Assembly (NCBI GenBank): GCA_022842285.1 | Contig: JALHPV010000043.1 | Span: forward strand, 1-34,196 | DNA: 34,196 nt | Direction: 5' to 3' | Origin: Kofleriaceae bacterium | GTDB taxonomy: Bacteria; Myxococcota_A; Polyangia; Haliangiales; Haliangiaceae | Shown here: piece after piece, positions 5,536 to 21,406 of the stretch | How positions within the stretch are numbered: position 1 is the stretch's first letter | Layout of the letters: each line of letters starts with the position of its first letter | The notes under the pieces: generated by a model | The model's database searches: none | What the model saw: the letters and a program-made list of their open reading frames with translations, nothing else | What the model was told of the DNA's origin: nothing | Made by a program: the position numbers and the translations under genes

Positions 5536-5565
5536 GGCGCGAGTCAACCGCACGTCCGGCGTAGA

Positions 5566-5616: not shown

Positions 5617-6276
5617 GTGAGTGTGTGTCACTGCCTGCCCGTCGAGCGGCCGGTGCCGCCGCGGACCACGGCCCTCCGCAAGGCGCTGGTTGTCCTGGCG
5701 GGACTCACGTTCGTCGGCGGACTGCTGATCGAGTCGTATCTGCTCGCCGCATCCGCATGGTTCGCGGCGAGCATGCTGGCCCCCGCGGTGGTGACGGCGG
5801 TCGCGCGCCACGTCGCCCGCTCGTGGCTCGCGCGGGCCACCTTCGGGTTCACCCCCGGCAAGCTGACCGCGCTGGTCGAGCACACGTGCGCGGTGATGTT
5901 CGTGCTCGGCGCGATGGCCATCGGCACCGCGGCGGGGCGCAGCCTCCTGCTGGGGGGACCGGCGCTGGCCGTCGTCGATGCGGTGGCGGGCCTGGCCGTG
6001 CTCGTGCCGACGCTGGTCGCGTGCGTCGCGCGGAGTCGCCACGCGCTGCGCGAGCTCGTCGACATGGACCCGGGCGGGGCGGTCCAGCGGCAGGTGCGGG
6101 CACTGTTGCCACCTCCGATCCAGGAGGTTCGCGTATGGTCGCTCGGTACGGGTATGTACGGATGCACGGCCACCCTGCACGGTGGACCGGAGCTCGACCT
6201 GGCCGCGTGCCGCGAGAAGATCCTCGCGATGGGACACGTAGCGCACGTGACGCTCGAGGTGCGACCGCCTACGTGA
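5617..6276 (+). CDS. Shortened, degenerate CDF (DmeF-like) membrane protein
   Basis: A 219-residue membrane protein with three or four hydrophobic segments and a C-terminal soluble domain. The C-terminus (about 167-217), VRVWSLGTGMYGC...HVAHVTLEV, matches the cytoplasmic domain of cation diffusion facilitators of the DmeF type. The TFGFTPGK motif (75-82) matches the loop before TM3 of those proteins. However, the TM2 metal site, normally LADxxHxxxD, is replaced by LLAASAWFAAS. The TM4-TM5 region with the second HxxxD seems absent, since TM6-like sequence follows TM3 directly. Full CDFs are about 300 residues or more. It is unlikely to pump zinc by the normal route and may be a regulatory or partner subunit. 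GTG start at 5617; operator A is upstream. Confidence 0.65.
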   Translation: MSVCHCLPVERPVPPRTTALRKALVVLAGLTFVGGLLIESYLLAASAWFAASMLAPAVVTAVARHVARSWLARATFGFTPGKLTALVEHTCAVMFVLGAMAIGTAAGRSLLLGGPALAVVDAVAGLAVLVPTLVACVARSRHALRELVDMDPGGAVQRQVRALLPPPIQEVRVWSLGTGMYGCTATLHGGPELDLAACREKILAMGHVAHVTLEVRPPT

Positions 6277-6311: not shown

Positions 6312-6752
6312 CTAGGTGCAGGTATCGCAGATGCCGCGGAGCTGGAGCTCGACCTCGCGGCGCTTGACGGCCCGCGGCGCCTTCGCCTTCGGCTTCGGCG
6401 TCATGAGCTCGACGTCGGGAAGGCACTCGACCACCCCGCACTCCTTGCACACGAAATGCGCGTGATCGTCGGTGTGGGCGCCGTCGATGGCTTCGAACCG
6501 CCAGACGTGGTCGCCAACATCGGTGCGACGAGCCAGCCCCGCTTCCACCAGATCGAGCAAGTTGCGGTAGATCGTCGCCGGATCCCACGGACCGGTCGAG
6601 AGCTTCGCGGTCACGTCGGCGTGCGAGACGGGCTGACCGCCCATCGCCCGCAGATGCTGGAGGACGGCGATGCGAGACGCCGTGGCCCGCAGACCTCGTT
6701 CGCGCAGAATGCTGCGAAACGCTTCGAGGTCGGGCTTCATCGCTTCAACCAT
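6312..6752 (-). CDS. zur: Fur-family regulator, probable Zur
   Basis: A 146-residue Fur-family repressor with an N-terminal winged helix (RATASRIAVLQHL and WDPATIYRNLLDLVEAGL) and a C-terminal dimer/metal domain. The HTDDHAHFVCKECG segment contributes regulatory-metal ligands, and two CxxC pairs (CKEC and CDTC) form the structural zinc site. Family membership is clear. The assignment to zinc (Zur) rests on context: COG0523 GTPases, a ZIP-like transporter, DUF1826 and a repeated operator all around it. The ATG at 6752 is preceded by GAGGGAG at a good distance, which favours it over the ATG at 6740. Operator B lies about 140 bases upstream, suggesting autoregulation. It faces the CDF-like gene tail to tail. 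Confidence 0.85.
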   Translation of the reverse strand: MVEAMKPDLEAFRSILRERGLRATASRIAVLQHLRAMGGQPVSHADVTAKLSTGPWDPATIYRNLLDLVEAGLARRTDVGDHVWRFEAIDGAHTDDHAHFVCKECGVVECLPDVELMTPKPKAKAPRAVKRREVELQLRGICDTCT

Positions 6753-6884: not shown

Positions 6885-8039
6885 CTAGGAGTTATTGCAA
6901 GTCGATTGCATCAGACGTTCGCCCGCCGCGCGGGCTCCAGCGATGTTGCGCGCTGACGGGCCGAGGCGGAGCTCGGCGAGGGAGCCGGTGACGTAGAGGC
7001 CCGGTGCCCACTCGAGCGTGTCGCGCGGTAGCGGGAAGCCACATGCGGAGCAGGGGAGGCCGAGGTCGTCGATCAAGCGATCTACCAGCGCACCGCCGGG
7101 ACGCCGGCGAGCGAAGCCCGTGGCCAGGACGACCTGATCGACGCGCAACGATCGACGGGACTCGGTCAGCTCGAGCTCGAACGACGCATCCGCCGTCACG
7201 CGGGCGATCTCTCCTTCGAGCCAGTCGATGGTCCCCGCGCGCGCGGCCCGCCGGAGGGCCCGTGTGAGATCGCGCGGGATCGATCCCCGGTGTCGGGCCC
7301 GGTCGATCTGCGCCCGCCGTTCGTGGAGGGGCGAGGCCGCGAACGCCGCCATGTGGCGTGGGCCGAGCCAGCCCGCGTCGCTGTCGAACTGGTGTTCGCG
7401 CGGCGCATGGCGGGCGATGATCGAGACCTGCAGCCCACGGCGGTTCAGATCGAGGGCGACCTGGGCCGCCGAGATCCCTCCGCCGATGATCGCGACCCGC
7501 TGCCCGGCCGCGAGATGCGTGGTGCTGAATGCGGGGTGAAAGACGTGCCAGTCCGGCGTGGGCGCCCATGTCGGGATCGCGATCTCGTCACTCGCCCCGA
7601 GGGCCAGCACCACCCGTCGGGTCTGGAGCGGTCCCCGGCTCGTCTCGACCCGGAATCCGGACGGAGTCCGCTCGACAGACGTCGCGGCCGCCATCACGCG
7701 GAGCGCATCGAGGCCGTGCTTCTCGGTGACGTGCCTGGAATGGGCCCGAAACAGCGAGAGGCGAGGGCGGTCGTACGGGGGAATGAACCCGCCGTGGCGG
7801 CCGCGGGACCGCTTGTGGAAGTCGAGCAGGGAGTACGGATGCAGATCGAGATGGTGCACGCCCACCGAACGCATGTGCGTCATGCCGGTCGCCGCCGTGT
7901 ACTGCCAGAACACGGCCAGCGGCTCGGCCTCGCGGTCGAGCACGCAAACGCGGTCACGCGCGACCCCCTTCCCGGTGGTGAGCACGTGGGACAGGTGCGT
8001 GCCATGCACGCCCCCCCCGATGACGACCCATTCCAGCAT
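6885..8039 (-). CDS. FAD/NAD(P)-binding oxidoreductase
   Basis: A 384-residue flavoprotein-like enzyme. An N-terminal dinucleotide fold (VVIGGGVHGTHLSH) and a second Rossmann motif in the middle (VAIIGGGISAAQVAL) match the two-nucleotide layout of flavin-dependent monooxygenases of the lysine/ornithine N-hydroxylase and FAD-NAD(P)-binding type. An ATGF motif (LATGFARR) precedes the final FAD contact region near GLYVTGSLAEL. The substrate is not recognisable. The ATG at 8039 is chosen because the longer frame to 8099 would read straight through operator C; a GTG at 8054 is also possible. The last codons run through operator B, so the C-terminal residues (QSTCNN) are partly dictated by a regulatory site. 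The gene is divergent from the ZIP-like gene and shares operator C with it. Confidence 0.75.
   Translation of the reverse strand: MLEWVVIGGGVHGTHLSHVLTTGKGVARDRVCVLDREAEPLAVFWQYTAATGMTHMRSVGVHHLDLHPYSLLDFHKRSRGRHGGFIPPYDRPRLSLFRAHSRHVTEKHGLDALRVMAAATSVERTPSGFRVETSRGPLQTRRVVLALGASDEIAIPTWAPTPDWHVFHPAFSTTHLAAGQRVAIIGGGISAAQVALDLNRRGLQVSIIARHAPREHQFDSDAGWLGPRHMAAFAASPLHERRAQIDRARHRGSIPRDLTRALRRAARAGTIDWLEGEIARVTADASFELELTESRRSLRVDQVVLATGFARRRPGGALVDRLIDDLGLPCSACGFPLPRDTLEWAPGLYVTGSLAELRLGPSARNIAGARAAGERLMQSTCNNS
6896..6910. promoter_or_regulatory. Zur-type operator B, inside the end of the FAD gene
   Basis: TGCAA-gtcga-TTGCA, a perfect match to the locus consensus. It lies within the last codons of the FAD oxidoreductase gene (stop at 6885-6887) and about 140 bases upstream of zur, the next gene in that direction. 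Autoregulation of zur is the simplest reading. Confidence 0.75.
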
Positions 8040-8068: not shown

Positions 8069-8096
8069 TTGCAATTGATTTGCAATAGTATTGCGG
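8069..8096. promoter_or_regulatory. Zur-type operator C, triple hexamer
   Basis: TTGCAA at 8069, TTGCAA at 8080 and TTGCGG at 8091 are spaced exactly 11 bp apart, giving two overlapping boxes (TGCAA-N5-TTGCA at 8070-8084 and TGCAA-N5-TTGCG at 8081-8095). The array occupies the divergent promoter of the FAD oxidoreductase (start 8039, minus) and the ZIP-like gene (start 8111, plus), so two repressor dimers could bind side by side. Confidence 0.8.
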
Positions 8097-8110
8097 CATA
8101 ATGTGCAGGC

Positions 8111-9544
8111 GTGCTGGCCCTCGCCCTCGCCGTGTCGATCGCCGGCATGTTCGTGGGGCCCTTGCTCGCGCCCCTGGCCGCGCGCTCGCCGCGGGGCATG
8201 CACGTGCTCGATGCCATCACGCTCGCGCTCGTGCCGGGCGTGGTGATCACCCGGACGCTCCCGCACCTGCTCGAGGACGGCGGGGTCGCGCCGGTCCTCG
8301 GCCTGGTCGGGGGATATGCGGCCTACCAGGCGATCGAGAGCTACACCCACAGCCGCGCCTCGCGGATGGGCGTGATCGTGGCCGTGACCGCGCTCGGACT
8401 GCACGCCCTCTTCGATGGCGCCACCCTCGGCGTGATCCTCCGCGGTCAGCCCTTCGATGCCGAGCTGGTCCCCCTGATCGTCGCGCTGCTGCTGCACCGC
8501 GTGCCCGAGGGCCTCTTCGTGGGGACGTCGCTGCGGCTGACCGACCGCCGCACGCTCTTCGCGATCGCGGCGGGGCTGTGCACCATGACGGTGGCGGGCG
8601 CGATGATCGGCGACGCGGTGGTGGAGGTGCTGCCGCACGAGACGACGCACACGGTGATCGCCGTCGGGCTTGGCGTCATGATCAGGATGGTCGTCGACCG
8701 CCACGATCGGCCGGTCGACGTGGAGCACCGCACGCACCTCGCGTGCGGCCTCGCGTTCCTGTTCTGTATCGCGCTGCTCCTGGTGGTGCCGAACACCGAA
8801 GACATCTTTGCCACGGCCCGCGCTCACGAGCTGTCCGTGCGCGAGGCGCTCGTGCCTCTCTTCTTCGAGACGGCACCGCTGCTCCTCACCACGCTCGTGA
8901 TCGGCGAGGTCGTCGCGCGTCGCCTTCGCCTGAGTGATCCGGCGCATCACGCCGATGCGTGGACCAGCACGAGCGTGCTCGCCGCCGCGCTCATCAGTCC
9001 ATGGTCAGGCCTCCTGCGCATGGTGGCCACCCCCGCCTTCGCCGCCGCGTTCGGTCGCACCGGGCAGTGGTGGATTCCGCGGGCCCGGAGCGTCCTTCCC
9101 ACGTACGTCGTCGGCGTCATGGTCGCGGCGGTCCTCGAGGCCGCCCTCCCGGCCCAGCTCTTCGCCGGCTGGTCGCCCGTGGTGCTCACGATCGGGGCCG
9201 TGATCGTTGCCAGCACCGTCCACGTCGGCGGTGCCGCGGCGGTCGTGGCGGCGGTGCTCGTGCACAAGGGGATCGGCGTTCCCGTCGCGCTCGCGTTCCT
9301 GCTCGCCTCGGCCGCCCGCGAGCTGGCGCATGACCTACGACAGCGCGTCTTCGGCGCGGTGACAGCTGCCCTCGCCGCGGCTGGGTTCGCCCAGTTCTTC
9401 GGCCCGGTCGCCCATCCCCAGCTCCACGAGGCGGCGGCGCATCCGCACGCGATTCATGAATGGATCTGTGCGGTCGCGCTCGTCGCCTGGATCGCCGTCG
9501 ATCTCGCGGCGGCCGGGCCGCGCCGCTGGCTCGACGACCGCTGA
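8111..9544 (+). CDS. ZIP-like metal transporter fused to a permease-like domain
   Basis: A 477-residue polytopic membrane protein. The first half resembles ZIP transporters: HALFDG (H98...D102) and LLLHRVPEG (H129...E133) match the HxxxDG and HxxPEG metal-site helices of TM4 and TM5. The second half (about 235-440) adds more membrane segments. One, LVHKGIGVPVALAFLLASA, resembles the RKGAPLGAAxAFLLASP signature of ArsP/DUF318 permeases, but without that family's cysteines. ZIP proteins are normally 250-300 residues, so this looks like a fusion. Likely role: Zn(II) uptake into the cytoplasm under zinc shortage. GTG start at 8111, right after operator C. Confidence 0.7.
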   Translation: MLALALAVSIAGMFVGPLLAPLAARSPRGMHVLDAITLALVPGVVITRTLPHLLEDGGVAPVLGLVGGYAAYQAIESYTHSRASRMGVIVAVTALGLHALFDGATLGVILRGQPFDAELVPLIVALLLHRVPEGLFVGTSLRLTDRRTLFAIAAGLCTMTVAGAMIGDAVVEVLPHETTHTVIAVGLGVMIRMVVDRHDRPVDVEHRTHLACGLAFLFCIALLLVVPNTEDIFATARAHELSVREALVPLFFETAPLLLTTLVIGEVVARRLRLSDPAHHADAWTSTSVLAAALISPWSGLLRMVATPAFAAAFGRTGQWWIPRARSVLPTYVVGVMVAAVLEAALPAQLFAGWSPVVLTIGAVIVASTVHVGGAAAVVAAVLVHKGIGVPVALAFLLASAARELAHDLRQRVFGAVTAALAAAGFAQFFGPVAHPQLHEAAAHPHAIHEWICAVALVAWIAVDLAAAGPRRWLDDR

Positions 9545-10634: not shown

Positions 10635-11309
10635 TCACCCGAGCGGGTCGAGCGTGAGCAGCCACCGCGTCGAGGCCGGGCGCGGCGAGCGATGCACGAT
10701 CCCCCCAACATCGGAGTCCCAGAGCTCGCCCTTCATGATGACGACGTCGCCCGTCTGGGCCCGCGCGATCGTGCCGCCCTCGCGGAGGAGGCCCGACGTC
10801 TCATCCGGGAGTCCACCATGGTGGGGCGAGAGCTTGCTGCGATTCACCTGTCCCTCGCTGATCATCTCCGTCCCCTCGCCGGCGTACGCGATGACGAGTC
10901 GAAGCAGCACGCGGTCGACGTGGAACCGGGGACACATGGCCTTGGCCTCGTGGGCGAGCCGGACGCCCACGAGCGGGACGTCGCACAGATCCGACATCAC
11001 GCCGACCCAGAACGCGATGTCGTTCGTGAGGGCTCGCGGCAAGCCGAGGCCGCCGTGGAGCGCCGCCCGCGCATCGTCCCGGGCTTCGACCACCAGCTTC
11101 GTCGCTGGTCGCTCGTCCCCACCGAGCGCGGCCACCTCGGCCGCCACCGCGGCGTCGGGTGGGCGCCGCAGGATCACCGCGTTGATGTCCCGATCGAAGA
11201 TCCGGATGATCCCCGAGGTGTGGGACGTCACGACGATGCTGTCGCGTCCGATGCTCTGCGCGCGGGGAGGGTGATCGTGGTCATCGCAACAGGCCGGAGT
11301 TGCATCCAT
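10635..11309 (-). CDS. DUF1826 family protein
   Basis: A 224-residue cytoplasmic protein. The core CPRFHVDRVLLRLV, then GDVVIMKGELW, IVHRSP and a closing RWLLTLD strand match my memory of DUF1826, a family often found beside COG0523 GTPases in zinc-responsive clusters. H130-x-D132, a distal H206 and a following Arg resemble the iron-binding H-x-D...H and 2-oxoglutarate Arg of Fe(II)/2OG oxygenases; this is inference. A short N-terminal segment has CC..H.H residues. The ATG at 11309 is preferred; a TTG at 11345 would begin inside operator E. Confidence 0.75.
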   Translation of the reverse strand: MDATPACCDDHDHPPRAQSIGRDSIVVTSHTSGIIRIFDRDINAVILRRPPDAAVAAEVAALGGDERPATKLVVEARDDARAALHGGLGLPRALTNDIAFWVGVMSDLCDVPLVGVRLAHEAKAMCPRFHVDRVLLRLVIAYAGEGTEMISEGQVNRSKLSPHHGGLPDETSGLLREGGTIARAQTGDVVIMKGELWDSDVGGIVHRSPRPASTRWLLTLDPLG

Positions 11310-11340
11310 CGCCCACACGGAAGCACGACTCGAGTGCTGG

Positions 11341-11355
11341 TGCAATGGATTTGCA
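11341..11355. promoter_or_regulatory. Zur-type operator E
   Basis: TGCAA-tggat-TTGCA, a perfect consensus. It sits directly after the stop of the first COG0523 gene (11357-11359) and 32 bases upstream of the DUF1826 start, so DUF1826 has a separate control site from the GTPase gene behind it. Confidence 0.8.
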
Positions 11356-11356
11356 A

Positions 11357-12559
11357 CTAGACGTCGTCGACCCAGGATGGAAACGGATCCTCGAACCGGT
11401 TCCAGGTCATCACTCCACCCTCGAGCTCGGAATCCGTGACCAGGGCCTCCTCGAAGCGGCGACGCAGCGCGACCTCGTCGAGCTGCTGTCCGATGATGAC
11501 GAGCTCCTGACGGCGATCACCCCATGGCTCCTGCCAGTCCCGATCGAGCTGGCTCCGCGTCTCGTCATCGGTTGGCCACTCGCTCTTCGGAAGGACCGCG
11601 AACCACATGCCGCCGGGGGTCACGTTGCCCGAGGCGCCGGCCTGGGACCAGATGGCCATGACCGGCGACCGCGAGGCGATCCACATGAAGCCCTTCGAGC
11701 GCAGCACGCGGCTCCAGGCCGCCTCGTCATGCAGGAGCGCCCAGAGGCGCGCGGGGTGAAACGGTCGGCGCGCGCGGAAGACGAAGCTCGAGATGCCGTA
11801 CTCCTCGGTCTCCGGCACGTGCTCGCCCCGCAACTCGGCCATCCAGCCCGGGGCGCGCGCCGCGCGCTCGAAGTCGAACGCGCCCGTTCCGAGCACGCGG
11901 TCGAGGGGCACCCGCCCTCGCTCGGCCCGGATGATCTGCGCGTCGCGATTCAGCTGGCGCAGAATGACCTCGAGGTGGTCGACCTCGGCGGGGGTGACGA
12001 GGTCGACCTTCGAGATCACGATGACGTTGGCGAACTCGACCTGCTCGACGAGCAGGTCCACGACGGTCCGCGCGTCCTCGTCATCGAGCGCGGCCTCGCG
12101 CACCTGCAGGTCATCCTCGGACTGCCAGTCGCGGAGGAAGTTCTTCGCATCCACGACCGTCACCATCGTATCGAGTCGCGCCACGTCCGAGAGCTGCTGG
12201 CCGGTCGCGTCCTCGAAGGTGAAGGTCTCGGCGACGGGGAGGGGCTCCGAGATGCCGGTCGATTCCACGAGCAGGTAGTCGAACCGGCCCTCGCGGGCGA
12301 GCCGCGAGACCTCGATCAGGAGATCCTCGCGCAACGTGCAGCAGATGCATCCGTTCTGCATCTCCACGAGCTTCTCGTCGACACGCGAGAGCGCGACCTT
12401 GCCGCCCGAGACCAGTCGCGCGTCGATGTTCACTTCGCTCATGTCGTTGACGATGACGGCGACCTTGCGACCCTCGCGATTGGCGAGGATCTGGTTCAGC
12501 AGGGTGGTCTTGCCCGCACCGAGGAAACCGCTCAGGACCGTGACCGGTAGCTTCTCCAT
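11357..12559 (-). CDS. COG0523 GTPase, YciC/ZigA (ZNG1-like) type
   Basis: A 400-residue SIMIBI-class GTPase metallochaperone. Visible motifs: Walker [13 protein letters not shown] near the N-terminus, the metal motif NGCICC (CxCC) with the flanking [10 protein letters not shown] segment, ESTGISEP, and the base-specifying SKVD in place of NKxD. The C-terminal CobW_C region contains the W/F-rich GFMWIASR segment. Family members deliver Zn(II) to client enzymes when zinc is short, and Zur control is the rule for this subtype. The ATG at 12559 is preceded by GAGG, and operator F lies 10 bases further upstream, overlapping the likely promoter. An open frame to 12610 would read through the operator and is rejected. 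Confidence 0.92.
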
Positions 12560-12568
12560 ATGACCTCG

Positions 12569-12583
12569 TGCAAAGGCTTTGCA
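12569..12583. promoter_or_regulatory. Zur-type operator F
   Basis: TGCAA-aggct-TTGCA, a perfect consensus, 10 bases upstream of the first COG0523 GTPase start. Binding there would block the promoter or early transcript. Confidence 0.8.
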
Positions 12584-12666
12584 ACTACATCCAGCGTGTG
12601 TCGATGTCAATCCGCGCGTTCGCTGTCCGTGACGGCCGCGCCGGAGCCGACGTCACCCGGTCGCGG

Positions 12667-17604: not shown

Positions 17605-18402
17605 GTGCAGGGCGCGTGGTCACGGTTCACCGGCGAACAGATGCCGGCCTTGCTCCCGGGACGTCCGGCCCAGGTGGTGCGAGGGGTTGCCCTGCCACAT
17701 GCCCAGGCCACCGCGATCGGTACGCTCCGCGCTCGCGCCGCGGACGCCTCTCGCTTCGCGTCCGTCCTGCGCGATGCCCACGCCACGCGCCTGGCGAGTC
17801 GGCTCGGCCTTCCCCTGGGAGGCGTGTGTCCGCGGCGTACGCGGGTGATCGCGACGCGGTCGCTTCACATCGACGACCGACTCCGCGACCACCAGGCCCG
17901 CGCCCCGCACGGGACCGTTGTCGAGCTCGGGGCCGGATTCAGCACGCGCTTCGAGCGGATCGACAACGGTACCCAGCGGTGGCTCGATATCGACCTGCCT
18001 CCCATCGTCGCGTTGCGCCAGTCGCACCTTCCGGGCAGCCCGCGGCGGGGCCACCTGGCCGCCTCGATCACGGATCTGACGTGGATGGACCTCGTGGCGA
18101 CGTTGCCGTCACCGCACTGCTTCGTGCTCGAAGCCGTCCTCGCGTATCTGCCGAGGGAGCTCGTCCCCGCGCTGCTGACGCGGATCGCGAGGCGGTTTCC
18201 CGGCGCGACGCTCCTGCTCGATCTACCCCGCACCGGCTCAGGTGTCGTGACGGCGGACGAGATCACGGCGTGGAAGACGGGCCTCGTCGTCCTCGAGGAC
18301 CACGCGTTCTTCGTGCCGAGTGCGGGGACGGCGTGCGCGGCGGAACCGCCGTATCGGCTCCTCCGCCTGCAGACGACCGCCGGACGCCGGTTCGGAATAT
18401 AG
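17605..18402 (+). CDS. LCM-family SAM-dependent methyltransferase
   Basis: A 265-residue cytoplasmic class I methyltransferase. The SAM-binding motif GTVVELGAGFSTRFERI and the following WLDIDLPPIVALR segment match the leucine carboxyl methyltransferase (LCM, PF04072-like) family, which includes PP2A carboxyl methyltransferases and bacterial O-methyltransferases of natural-product pathways. The VLEAVLAYLP segment is also typical. The methyl acceptor is unknown. Operator I lies 33 bases upstream. GTG start at 17605; no better ATG is seen. An origin in a small-molecule (metallophore-like) pathway is conceivable given the FAD enzyme in the same regulon, but no synthetase is present. Confidence 0.75.
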   Translation: MQGAWSRFTGEQMPALLPGRPAQVVRGVALPHAQATAIGTLRARAADASRFASVLRDAHATRLASRLGLPLGGVCPRRTRVIATRSLHIDDRLRDHQARAPHGTVVELGAGFSTRFERIDNGTQRWLDIDLPPIVALRQSHLPGSPRRGHLAASITDLTWMDLVATLPSPHCFVLEAVLAYLPRELVPALLTRIARRFPGATLLLDLPRTGSGVVTADEITAWKTGLVVLEDHAFFVPSAGTACAAEPPYRLLRLQTTAGRRFGI

Positions 18403-18428
18403 GCAATTCGATTGCAATTGAGTTCCAA
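18401..18428. promoter_or_regulatory. Zur-type operator J, triple hexamer
   Basis: AGGCAA at 18401, TTGCAA at 18412 and TTCCAA at 18423 are 11 bp apart, giving two overlapping boxes (GGCAA-N5-TTGCA and TGCAA-N5-TTCCA). The array lies 20 bases upstream of the second COG0523 gene and begins at the methyltransferase stop codon. Confidence 0.75.
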
Positions 18429-18447
18429 TTGCGATTACGCATACGGG

Positions 18448-19788
18448 ATGAGCGAGCGCGTTCCCGTCACTGTCCTCACCGGCTTCCTGGGCGCCGGGAA
18501 GACCACCTTGTTGAACCGGATCCTCACCGAGCATCACGGGCAACGCATCGCCGTCATCGAGAACGAGTTCGGCGAGATCGGGATCGACCAGGCCCTCGTC
18601 ATCAAGGCCGACGAAGAGATCTTCGAGATGAACAACGGGTGCATCTGCTGCACCGTCCGCGGCGATCTGATCCGGGTCCTCGGAAACTTGATGAAGCGAC
18701 GCGACAAGTTCGATCGCATCGTCGTCGAGACGACGGGGATGGCGAACCCCGGTCCGGTCGCCCAGACGTTCTTCGTCGACGAGGACGTCCAGAGTGACTT
18801 TCGCCTCGATGGCATCGTGACCCTGGTCGACGCGAAGCACCTCGACCTCCACCTCGGGCACCAGACCGAGGCCCACGAGCAGCTGGCGTTCGCGGACGTC
18901 ATTGTCGTGAACAAGGTCGATCTCGTGTCGGCCGATGAAGCGGCGGACATCGAGCGGCGGGTGCGTGGCCTCAACGGCATGGCGCGCGTCCTCCGGGGCC
19001 AGCACGGCGACGTACCGCTCGCCGCGGTCCTCGACGTCGGGGGCTTCGACCTCCAGCGCGCCCTGGAGCTGAGGCCCGATTTCCTGGAACCCGAGTACCC
19101 GTTCGAGTGGGGCGGGGTGTACCGGCTCGAGTCAGGGCCATACGCGGCCCACCTCGAGGCGGGGCCTGATCCGAGCATGAAGCTCCTCGTCGCTCCCATC
19201 GAGGAGGCGAGCCTGGAGGCGCTGGCGGGCGCGGCGGAGCGCGCGATGCGAAAGCTCGCGGAGGAACCCGTACCCATCGCGCCGGGCGCGGGGATCGAGG
19301 TCGCGCGGGCCGTCGAGCTCGAGCTCGTCGGGACTGCCCCGTACTCCTTCGGCCTCCCGATCGGACCGACGAGGCTCTACGTCGTGTTCACGCAGCACCT
19401 GCCGAGCGAGTTCACCTTCCAGCTCCGTGATGCTGCCGGACAGCTCGTGAGCCCCGTGGTCGAACGCGAATTCGCAGCGGCCCATACGCACGACAACGCC
19501 GTCGGGTCGGTGGGCGTCGAGTTCGATCGTCCGTTCGACGAGAAGCGCCTGAACGCGTGGCTCGGGACGCTGCTGCGCGAGCGTGGGGCCGACATCTTCC
19601 GCATGAAGGGCATCCTCGACATCGCGGGGTCCGACCAGCGGTTCGTGTTCCAGGGCGTCCACATGCTGTTCGATGGGCGCCCCGATGCGGTGTGGGGAGC
19701 GCGGCCCCGGAAGAGCCAGGTCGTGTTCATCGGTCGGAACCTCGATCGCGCGGAGCTGAAAGAGGGACTCGCGTCGTGCCTCGCCTGA
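18448..19788 (+). CDS. COG0523 GTPase, second paralogue
   Basis: A 446-residue GTPase metallochaperone with Walker [23 protein letters not shown], the metal motif NGCICCTVRGDL, ETTGMANPGP and a canonical NKVDLV. The CobW_C region ends with DIFRMKGILD and a histidine-containing VFQGVHMLF. An inserted region (about 205-330) makes it longer than the first paralogue, and a AAHTHDN patch adds a possible metal site. It differs from the 11357-12559 paralogue in the ENEFGEIGID and NKxD motifs, so it is a different COG0523 subgroup. The ATG at 18448 follows GGG; the frame to 18412 would start inside operator J. It heads a likely four-gene transcript. Confidence 0.9.
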   Translation: MSERVPVTVLTGFLGAGKTTLLNRILTEHHGQRIAVIENEFGEIGIDQALVIKADEEIFEMNNGCICCTVRGDLIRVLGNLMKRRDKFDRIVVETTGMANPGPVAQTFFVDEDVQSDFRLDGIVTLVDAKHLDLHLGHQTEAHEQLAFADVIVVNKVDLVSADEAADIERRVRGLNGMARVLRGQHGDVPLAAVLDVGGFDLQRALELRPDFLEPEYPFEWGGVYRLESGPYAAHLEAGPDPSMKLLVAPIEEASLEALAGAAERAMRKLAEEPVPIAPGAGIEVARAVELELVGTAPYSFGLPIGPTRLYVVFTQHLPSEFTFQLRDAAGQLVSPVVEREFAAAHTHDNAVGSVGVEFDRPFDEKRLNAWLGTLLRERGADIFRMKGILDIAGSDQRFVFQGVHMLFDGRPDAVWGARPRKSQVVFIGRNLDRAELKEGLASCLA

Positions 19789-19808: not shown

Positions 19809-20807
19809 ATGGAGCAACGCCCTCTCCTGGTGACCCGACCGGGATATCCGACGGCGATGGCCTGGTCGAGCACGGGAGACCTCCTCGCGGTCGGCGATGA
19901 CAGCGGCGAGCTCGCTCTCTACTCCCCGGACGGAGAGCGGCGATGCGTTCGCGCCCACGAGGGCCCGCTCCAGTCGCTGGCGTGGCATCCACGGCGCGCC
20001 GCCCTCCTCACCACCGGGCAGGACGGCGCCGTGCGGTTGTGGGAAGCACCCTTCACCGCGCCGACGGAGCTCCTGCCCCCGAGCGGGACGTGGGCGGACC
20101 ACGCATGCTGGTCCCCGAAAGGCGAGTACTCCGCCGTCGCGCTCGGGACGCGGGCGCACGTCTTCGGCGCCGGCGGTGCCGTCGTGACGGACGCGGTCGC
20201 ATCGACCGTCGCGGGCCTCGCGTTCAGTCCCAGTGGCAAGAGCCTCGGGATGGCCTGTTACGGCGGCGCAACGCTGGTCGCGCCAGCGACGGGCAAGCCG
20301 CTGCGCAAGCTCGCGTGGCGTGGGTCGATGGTCTCGATCGTGTTCTCCCCCGATGGCTCCGTCGTGGCCTGCGGGTGCCAGGACAACAGCGTTCACTTCT
20401 GGCGCGTGGCCTCCGGCCAGGACTCCCAGATGTCGGGCTACCCCGCGAAGCCGCGCAGCATCTCGTTCAACCACGACGGGAGCTGGCTCGCGACGTCGGG
20501 GGACGCCACGATCTCCCTCTGGCCGTTCGACAAGAAGGGGCCCGAGGGTCGCCGTCCCGTCCAGCTCGAGGGGCACACCGACGTGGTGACCGAGGTCGCG
20601 TTCGCCCCGCTCGTGGATGTCCTGATCTCGGGCAGCCGAGATGGCGTGGTCGCCGTCTGGATGCCTCCCAAGCTCACGCAACCGGTCTGGAGCATGCGCG
20701 GCGCGGGCAAGATCTCCCGGGTCGCATGGGGGGCCGACAGCACGCGCGGGACGCTGCGGTGGGCGATGGCCGATGCGCAGGGGCAGCTCGTACTGGGAGA
20801 GATCTGA
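19809..20807 (+). CDS. WD40-repeat beta-propeller protein
   Basis: A 332-residue cytoplasmic protein made of WD40-type repeats (for example GPLQSLAWHPRRAALLT, VSIVFSPDGSVVACG, DVVTEVAFAPLVDVLISG), enough for one seven-bladed propeller. It has no signal peptide or enzymatic domain, so it is likely a scaffold. It starts 20 bases after the COG0523 gene, and its TGA overlaps the ATG of the next gene. I recall WD40 proteins beside COG0523 GTPases in other proteobacteria. A role as partner of the GTPase or of its client is plausible but unproven. Confidence 0.82.
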   Translation: MEQRPLLVTRPGYPTAMAWSSTGDLLAVGDDSGELALYSPDGERRCVRAHEGPLQSLAWHPRRAALLTTGQDGAVRLWEAPFTAPTELLPPSGTWADHACWSPKGEYSAVALGTRAHVFGAGGAVVTDAVASTVAGLAFSPSGKSLGMACYGGATLVAPATGKPLRKLAWRGSMVSIVFSPDGSVVACGCQDNSVHFWRVASGQDSQMSGYPAKPRSISFNHDGSWLATSGDATISLWPFDKKGPEGRRPVQLEGHTDVVTEVAFAPLVDVLISGSRDGVVAVWMPPKLTQPVWSMRGAGKISRVAWGADSTRGTLRWAMADAQGQLVLGEI

Positions 20808-21406
20808 TGTTCGCGGCGGTCGTGCTCGGGGCCGCTCAGGGCGCGCGGCACTCGCTGGAGCCCGATCACCTCGCGGCCGTGTCGGTGCTGATCACCGGCC
20901 ATCGCGGCGCTCGGCGGAGTGCGTGGCTCGGCGCGGTGTGGGGCTTCGGGCACACCGTGTCGCTGGTCCTGATGAGCATCGTCCTGGTCGTCCTCGGCCG
21001 GGCCCTGCCTGATTCGGCCGACCGCGCCTTCACCGGGCTCGTCGGGGTGGTCCTCGTCGCGCTGGGGATCAGAACTCTCGTGACGCGGCCGCGACCCGAG
21101 CAGGTGCGGCCGGTCCGTACGACGCTGCAGGCGTTGTCGGTGGGCGCGCTGCATGGCCTGGCCGGTACGAGCGCGCTGACCGCGGTCGTGTTCGCCGCCT
21201 TGCCGACGGCGCTGGAGCGTCTCGTCTACATCACGCTGTTCGGCGTGGGGTCCATTGCCGGCATGGCCGCGGTGTCAGCCCTCGCGGGGCTCTGGCTCGG
21301 TCGGGTGCTCCAGCCTCGCTTGCTCGCCGGGCTCGGCATCGCCATCGGCCTGTTCTCGATCGGGATCGGGGCTCAGCTCCTGCTCTCGACGCTGGGCCTG
21401 CTGTGA
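20807..21406 (+). CDS. NicO/HupE-like metal permease
   Basis: A 199-residue protein with about six membrane helices. It shows HSLEPDHLAAV (an HxxxxDH metal motif) in the first helix and WGFGHTVSL in the second. A second half begins GALHGLAGTSALTA. These match the RcnA/NicO/HupE group of Ni/Co-type transporters. Under zinc-limitation control it may import an alternative metal or zinc itself; direction and metal cannot be read from sequence. Its start overlaps the WD40 stop (TGATG) and its stop overlaps the next start (GTGA), so translation is coupled. Confidence 0.75.
   Translation: MFAAVVLGAAQGARHSLEPDHLAAVSVLITGHRGARRSAWLGAVWGFGHTVSLVLMSIVLVVLGRALPDSADRAFTGLVGVVLVALGIRTLVTRPRPEQVRPVRTTLQALSVGALHGLAGTSALTAVVFAALPTALERLVYITLFGVGSIAGMAAVSALAGLWLGRVLQPRLLAGLGIAIGLFSIGIGAQLLLSTLGLL

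Follow-up and report, generated by a model that had tools for sequence, protein, structure and literature searches.

A ZIP protein with a decayed permease half in a putative Zur locus of a Kofleriaceae bacterium

In this study, a gene on the forward strand of a 34,196-nucleotide stretch of Kofleriaceae DNA (hereafter the window) was found to join a ZIP-family half to the decayed half of an ArsP_1/SO_0444-type permease. It is a shortened member of a widespread group of longer fusions, in which both halves are intact. Zinc importers and exporters are normally separate proteins that are oppositely controlled. A ZIP fold and an efflux-type permease in one chain raise the questions of which direction the metal takes and whether one half controls the other. 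We lean, by a modest degree, toward reading the window protein as a Zur-repressed zinc-uptake ZIP with a vestigial exporter half, descended from a longer ZIP-permease fusion. Of the two proteins, the intact fusion is the more novel and more interesting one.

The fused gene and its ZIP half

The gene (8111 to 9544) begins with GTG, encodes 477 residues and ends with a stop codon at 9542 to 9544. No stop or frameshift lies inside the open reading frame. Third-position GC is uniform over its thirds (0.96, 0.89 and 0.89) and falls off on either side, which indicates that 8111 to 9544 is a single coding frame. A plasmid-borne copy was considered and rejected, a plasmid collection having given no match.

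Residues 1 to 230 (8111 to 8800, forward strand) form the ZIP half, with eight helices. Pfam Zip (PF02535) matched it with an E-value of 7e-8 and 32.5 bits, just under the cut-off of 35.1, and BbZIP was matched by the family profile (E about 1e-13) across TM3 to TM8. The predicted model of the protein (pLDDT 85, pTM 0.85) resembled BbZIP with a Z score of 10.9 across 205 residues, the top non-ZIP chain reaching 7.0; Z scores below about 13 can be common among helical bundles. Fold and profile place this half in the ZIP family, with the single-sequence Pfam score under its cut-off. The HxxxDG and HxxPEG helices that a sequence-only reading of the locus had recognized are present as HALFDG in TM4 (residues 98 to 103; 8402 to 8419) and HRVPEG in TM5 (residues 129 to 134; 8495 to 8512), both on the forward strand.

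The metal centre of BbZIP consists of M99, H177, N178, E181, Q207, D208, E211 and E240 (PMC9873690). In the profile alignment, H98, D102, H129 and E133 of the window protein stand at H177, E181, Q207 and E211, the four M1 positions compared. At the M2 positions, A99, R130 and T160 replace N178, D208 and E240; M2 is not known to be a universal requirement of ZIP proteins. Judged from this alignment, M1 is largely retained and M2 is lost, and the arginine for D208 and the threonine for E240 make the metal centre depart from that of a standard ZIP. The window protein thus shares with BbZIP and the ZIP family the eight-helix fold, the H, D and E residues of M1 and the two motifs, but differs in lacking the M2 residues, in having a histidine for Q207 and in carrying a second, fused membrane domain. 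A TM7 histidine that is invariant in intact fusions is replaced by other residues. Across 36 intact members, the TM4 histidine and aspartate and the TM5 histidine likewise never varied, and the TM5 arginine hardly did. The position of E211 is not a glutamate in 64 of 99 CxC-bearing fusions; the window protein has a glutamate there.

The permease remnant and its intact relatives

The second half (residues 243 to 477; 8837 to 9541, forward strand) matched ArsP_1 weakly when searched in isolation (E 0.025). Its best-conserved part (residues 331 to 474; 9101 to 9532, forward strand) matched the permease half of a 605-residue homologue, L002, at E 4.8e-7, and the permease half of L002 matched ArsP_1 at E 2.2e-32. 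Fused relatives therefore bridge to ArsP_1, making the kinship of this half to the SO_0444 Cu/Zn efflux/ArsP_1 permeases solid. Searching each half separately, as the sequence-only reading had proposed, gave ZIP proteins for the first and permeases for the second, which aligned to no ZIP. The idea of another ZIP module in the second half was rejected, since the Zip profile has no match there.

The motifs CxC, TPEL, YVCA and GPATN are gone from the second half, together with about 130 residues; nearly all intact relatives have CxC, YVCA and GPATN. In agreement with the earlier description of a DUF318-like half without cysteines, neither the CxC nor the YVCA site has a cysteine. The segment that bears CSCG in relatives would fall at 8912 to 8970 on the forward strand (the local alignment is approximate), and no frame of the gene encodes it. 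A frameshift or mis-assembly as the origin of the shortening was rejected, since no frame yields CSCG and third-position GC stays uniform along the gene. The window protein gave no match to NF033936, an equivalog model with a curated cut-off of 300 bits. Decay is graded among relatives: ArsP_1 scored 107 bits for L002, 38 for L005 and 14 for the window half, and gave nothing for L007. The second half of the window protein is still predicted to be a helical membrane domain, whose last third shows conservation with relatives. A fold search with this half of the model gave no clear match, and it is too reduced for fold comparison with ArsB/YdaH/INDY-type elevator transporters. With the thiolates (CxC and the YVCA cysteine), GPATN and some 130 residues lost, it probably no longer transports.

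Homologues were found in 31 of the 192 genomes searched of the same class. The complete ones are mostly longer (about 590 to 720 residues) and consist of a ZIP-like half followed by a full permease with the motifs CSCG, TPELG, YVCASGATP and GPATN; many intact members end in a histidine-rich stretch. Among 25 members, the ZIP half matched Pfam Zip in 18, the permease half matched ArsP_1 in 21 (best E 1e-48), and NCBIfam CuZnOut_SO0444 (NF033936) was matched by 21 (best E 4.8e-68). A profile search across 377 genomes from the phylum turned up full-length fusions in about 90, as counted from the listing. A scan of GTDB genomes, seeded with 11 intact members and hence biased in its named list to intact forms, returned 80 loci, and in all 80 a fusion reading frame spanned both halves. 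Intact fusions occur in at least eight phyla. The lineages include Gemmatimonadota, Latescibacterota, Planctomycetota, Acidobacteriota, Myxococcota, Bdellovibrionota, Binatota, Rhodothermota and Alteromonadaceae; the genomes are mostly metagenome-assembled, with Enhygromyxa salina and Acanthopleuribacter pedis as named strains. These distributions bear on the earlier claims. A length of 477 residues had been regarded as unusual; in this family a fusion of such size is ordinary, and it is about 130 residues below the nearest fused relatives. The proposal of a two-module importer has lost its support, because the second module is akin to SO_0444, a family linked to metal efflux.

Among known families, the intact permease half comes nearest to the SO_0444 Cu/Zn efflux transporters. 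Like SO_0444 (NF033936) and ArsP_1/DUF318 (PF03773) proteins, it carries CxC, YVCA and GPATN, whereas the window protein has none of the three. In Shewanella, SO_0444 was needed for growth under zinc or copper stress, with complementation, hence its efflux annotation (PMC3219624). A review lists a selenoprotein variant of this family with UxC (PMC13188914), suggesting that CxC is important. Whole intact fusions scored 200 to 237 bits against NF033936, under its cut-off of 300, which indicates a branch separate from the SO_0444 family. Intact fusions may be annotated under the name of one half only.

The model of the intact Enhygromyxa protein (pLDDT 85) has a ZIP half resembling BbZIP (Z 11.6) and a permease half (residues 241 to 541) resembling YdaH (Z 13.3) and ArsB (Z 12.9), values to be read with the same caution about helical bundles. 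Nearly all fold matches to this permease half were elevator-type transporters. A sequence search of the PDB with the permease half gave no match; its likeness to ArsB/YdaH/INDY-type elevators is one of fold alone. An intact fusion with two elevator folds per chain looks undescribed: no description of a ZIP-ArsP fusion was found in open-access papers, a set that excludes most subscription titles. The earlier suggestion of a new transporter architecture holds in so far as the fusion is absent from the papers searched; it fails as a property of this locus, which encodes a shortened, motif-less form.

In a tree of ZIP halves, the window protein grouped with L002 to L008 (support 100/100) on a long branch (1.15), and this group mixes members with and without CxC. 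Over the whole tree, the absence of CxC requires six changes, at least five of them forced by supported branches; the other motif-less members are L005 to L008, L015, L016 and L026. The tree gives no direction to these changes. Losses appear likelier than gains, given the match of intact permeases to ArsP_1 proteins at large.

Putative Zur boxes and neighbouring genes

A perfect TTGCAA-N5-TTGCAA palindrome, a putative Zur box (8069 to 8085), covers the -35 element of a promoter-like sequence, TTGATT-16-CATAAT (8075 to 8102, forward strand; a consensus match only). A second, overlapping putative box with two mismatches (8080 to 8096) lies just ahead of the -10 element. Because the promoter-like sequence ends nine bases ahead of the GTG, transcription may give a leaderless mRNA. 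Paired Zur boxes across -35 and -10 are known elsewhere, and zupT is listed among Zur targets (PMC6103462). Allowing up to three mismatches, the window holds 13 such boxes against 1.8 expected, a number reached by no shuffle. Genome-wide (7.9 Mb), eight boxes have at most one mismatch, six of them in the window, and the only perfect one is that on the fusion promoter.

The neighbouring genes agree with the Zur locus that the sequence-only reading had assumed: the promoter bears a palindromic putative operator, and a FUR-family regulator is encoded close by. This regulator, presumed to be Zur (6312 to 6752, reverse strand; Pfam FUR E 1.5e-12), has a box upstream at 6895 to 6911. On the same strand lie a DUF1826 protein (10635 to 11345; E 8.5e-39; box at 11340) and the zinc metallochaperone GTPase ZigA of COG0523 (11357 to 12610; NCBIfam 636 bits, cut-off 600; box at 12568). 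COG0523 genes with DUF1826 have been seen in published Zur clusters (PMC2770081). On the forward strand, a second COG0523 (cobW) GTPase (18412 to 19788) has overlapping tandem boxes at 18401 and 18412, with the same 11-base spacing as those before the ZIP fusion, and is adjoined by a 487-residue protein weakly like NicO (nickel transport; 19943 to 21406, forward strand; just under the cut-off). A CDF-like protein (5617 to 6276, forward strand; weak DmeF match; box at 5565) lacks the HxxxD-type residues of the CDF protein adjoining L002, and also a block of about 70 residues bearing the second metal motif. With it, the putative Zur cluster holds two decayed exporters. ZupT is likewise a ZIP-type protein in a Zur setting, and some relatives of the fusion match NF003243 weakly; unlike the window protein with its fused, decayed permease, ZupT is a single-domain protein.

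The context of the fusion family is mixed, as some members adjoin ArsR-type regulators. Among 149 neighbours of intact fusions, HTH_5 (ArsR type) was counted 6 times, FUR 3, cobW 2 and ALAD 6; a universal partner gene was sought among them and rejected. A FUR-family gene stands immediately before the fusion, in the same orientation, in two near relatives (L142 and L144). A search for the TTGCAA box before the relatives found none at most of them and gave scattered matches, the best at L146, L128 and L150. An intact fusion of Alteromonadaceae (L130; 6792 to 8653) stands directly beside DUF1826 and ZigA genes. Zur regulation of Bacillus subtilis ycgRQ (DUF318) was considered but was unsupported by the papers found.

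Profile searches detected no other Zip, ArsP_1 or ABC-3/ZnuB protein in the rest of the assembly (96.65% complete); in the control, the ABC-3 search was positive in 13 of 14. In a survey of 30 genomes of the bacterial family, 20 were without ABC-3 and 16 without a Zip match. Such frequent absence means that other zinc routes must exist in this family. A part for the window fusion as the main zinc importer would fit the lack of any other detected Zip or ZnuB.

Possible roles of the window protein

In the reading that we favour slightly, scarcity of zinc would release Zur from the tandem promoter boxes, and the protein would be made. The ZIP half would carry Zn(II) through a single M1-type site (H98, D102, H129 and E133) by an elevator movement of the BbZIP type. 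The second half, a presumed remnant of an SO_0444/ArsP-type metal exporter, may persist as a scaffold in the membrane, perhaps aiding dimerization or stability.

The protein may instead be no transporter at all, its ZIP half binding zinc as a membrane sensor or regulator while the remnant docks a partner such as the CDF-like protein or ZigA. Loss of M2, an arginine in the metal centre, a neighbouring CDF-like protein that also lacks metal-site segments, and a decayed half that was retained, not deleted, would suit such a role. However, the four M1 positions are kept, the glutamate at the E211 position sets the protein apart from most intact fusions, and it is the sole ZIP detected in the genome; we regard a sensor as unlikely. 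A role in export or in two-way transport, with the altered second half taking part despite its missing cysteines, could draw on the predicted helical membrane domain and its conserved last third. The loss of four motifs with so many residues, and boxes and neighbours that indicate zinc starvation, leave this very unlikely. The long branch, the occurrence of the protein in a single draft assembly and its absence from the 15 congeneric genomes searched would be expected of a functionless decaying gene or an assembly artefact. An uninterrupted frame of uniform third-position GC, motif-less members in other genomes and a promoter-like site carrying the best box of the genome argue against both, and we consider them highly improbable.

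Beyond the favoured role as a zinc-uptake ZIP, a broader and speculative view, to which we give rather little credence, concerns the intact fusion. It would be a single-chain dual-elevator transporter with coupled importer and exporter folds, whose exporter half was switched off in several lineages, the window protein being one such form under zinc-starvation control. The coupling could serve two-way zinc homeostasis, or the ZIP half could sense metal and gate efflux. Repeated loss of the exporter cysteines while the fused ZIP persists would supply natural variants for testing the direction of the metal and whether one half controls the other. In three of the CxC-less members (L006, L007 and L008), the loop joining TM4 and TM5 of the ZIP half contains a histidine-rich insert.
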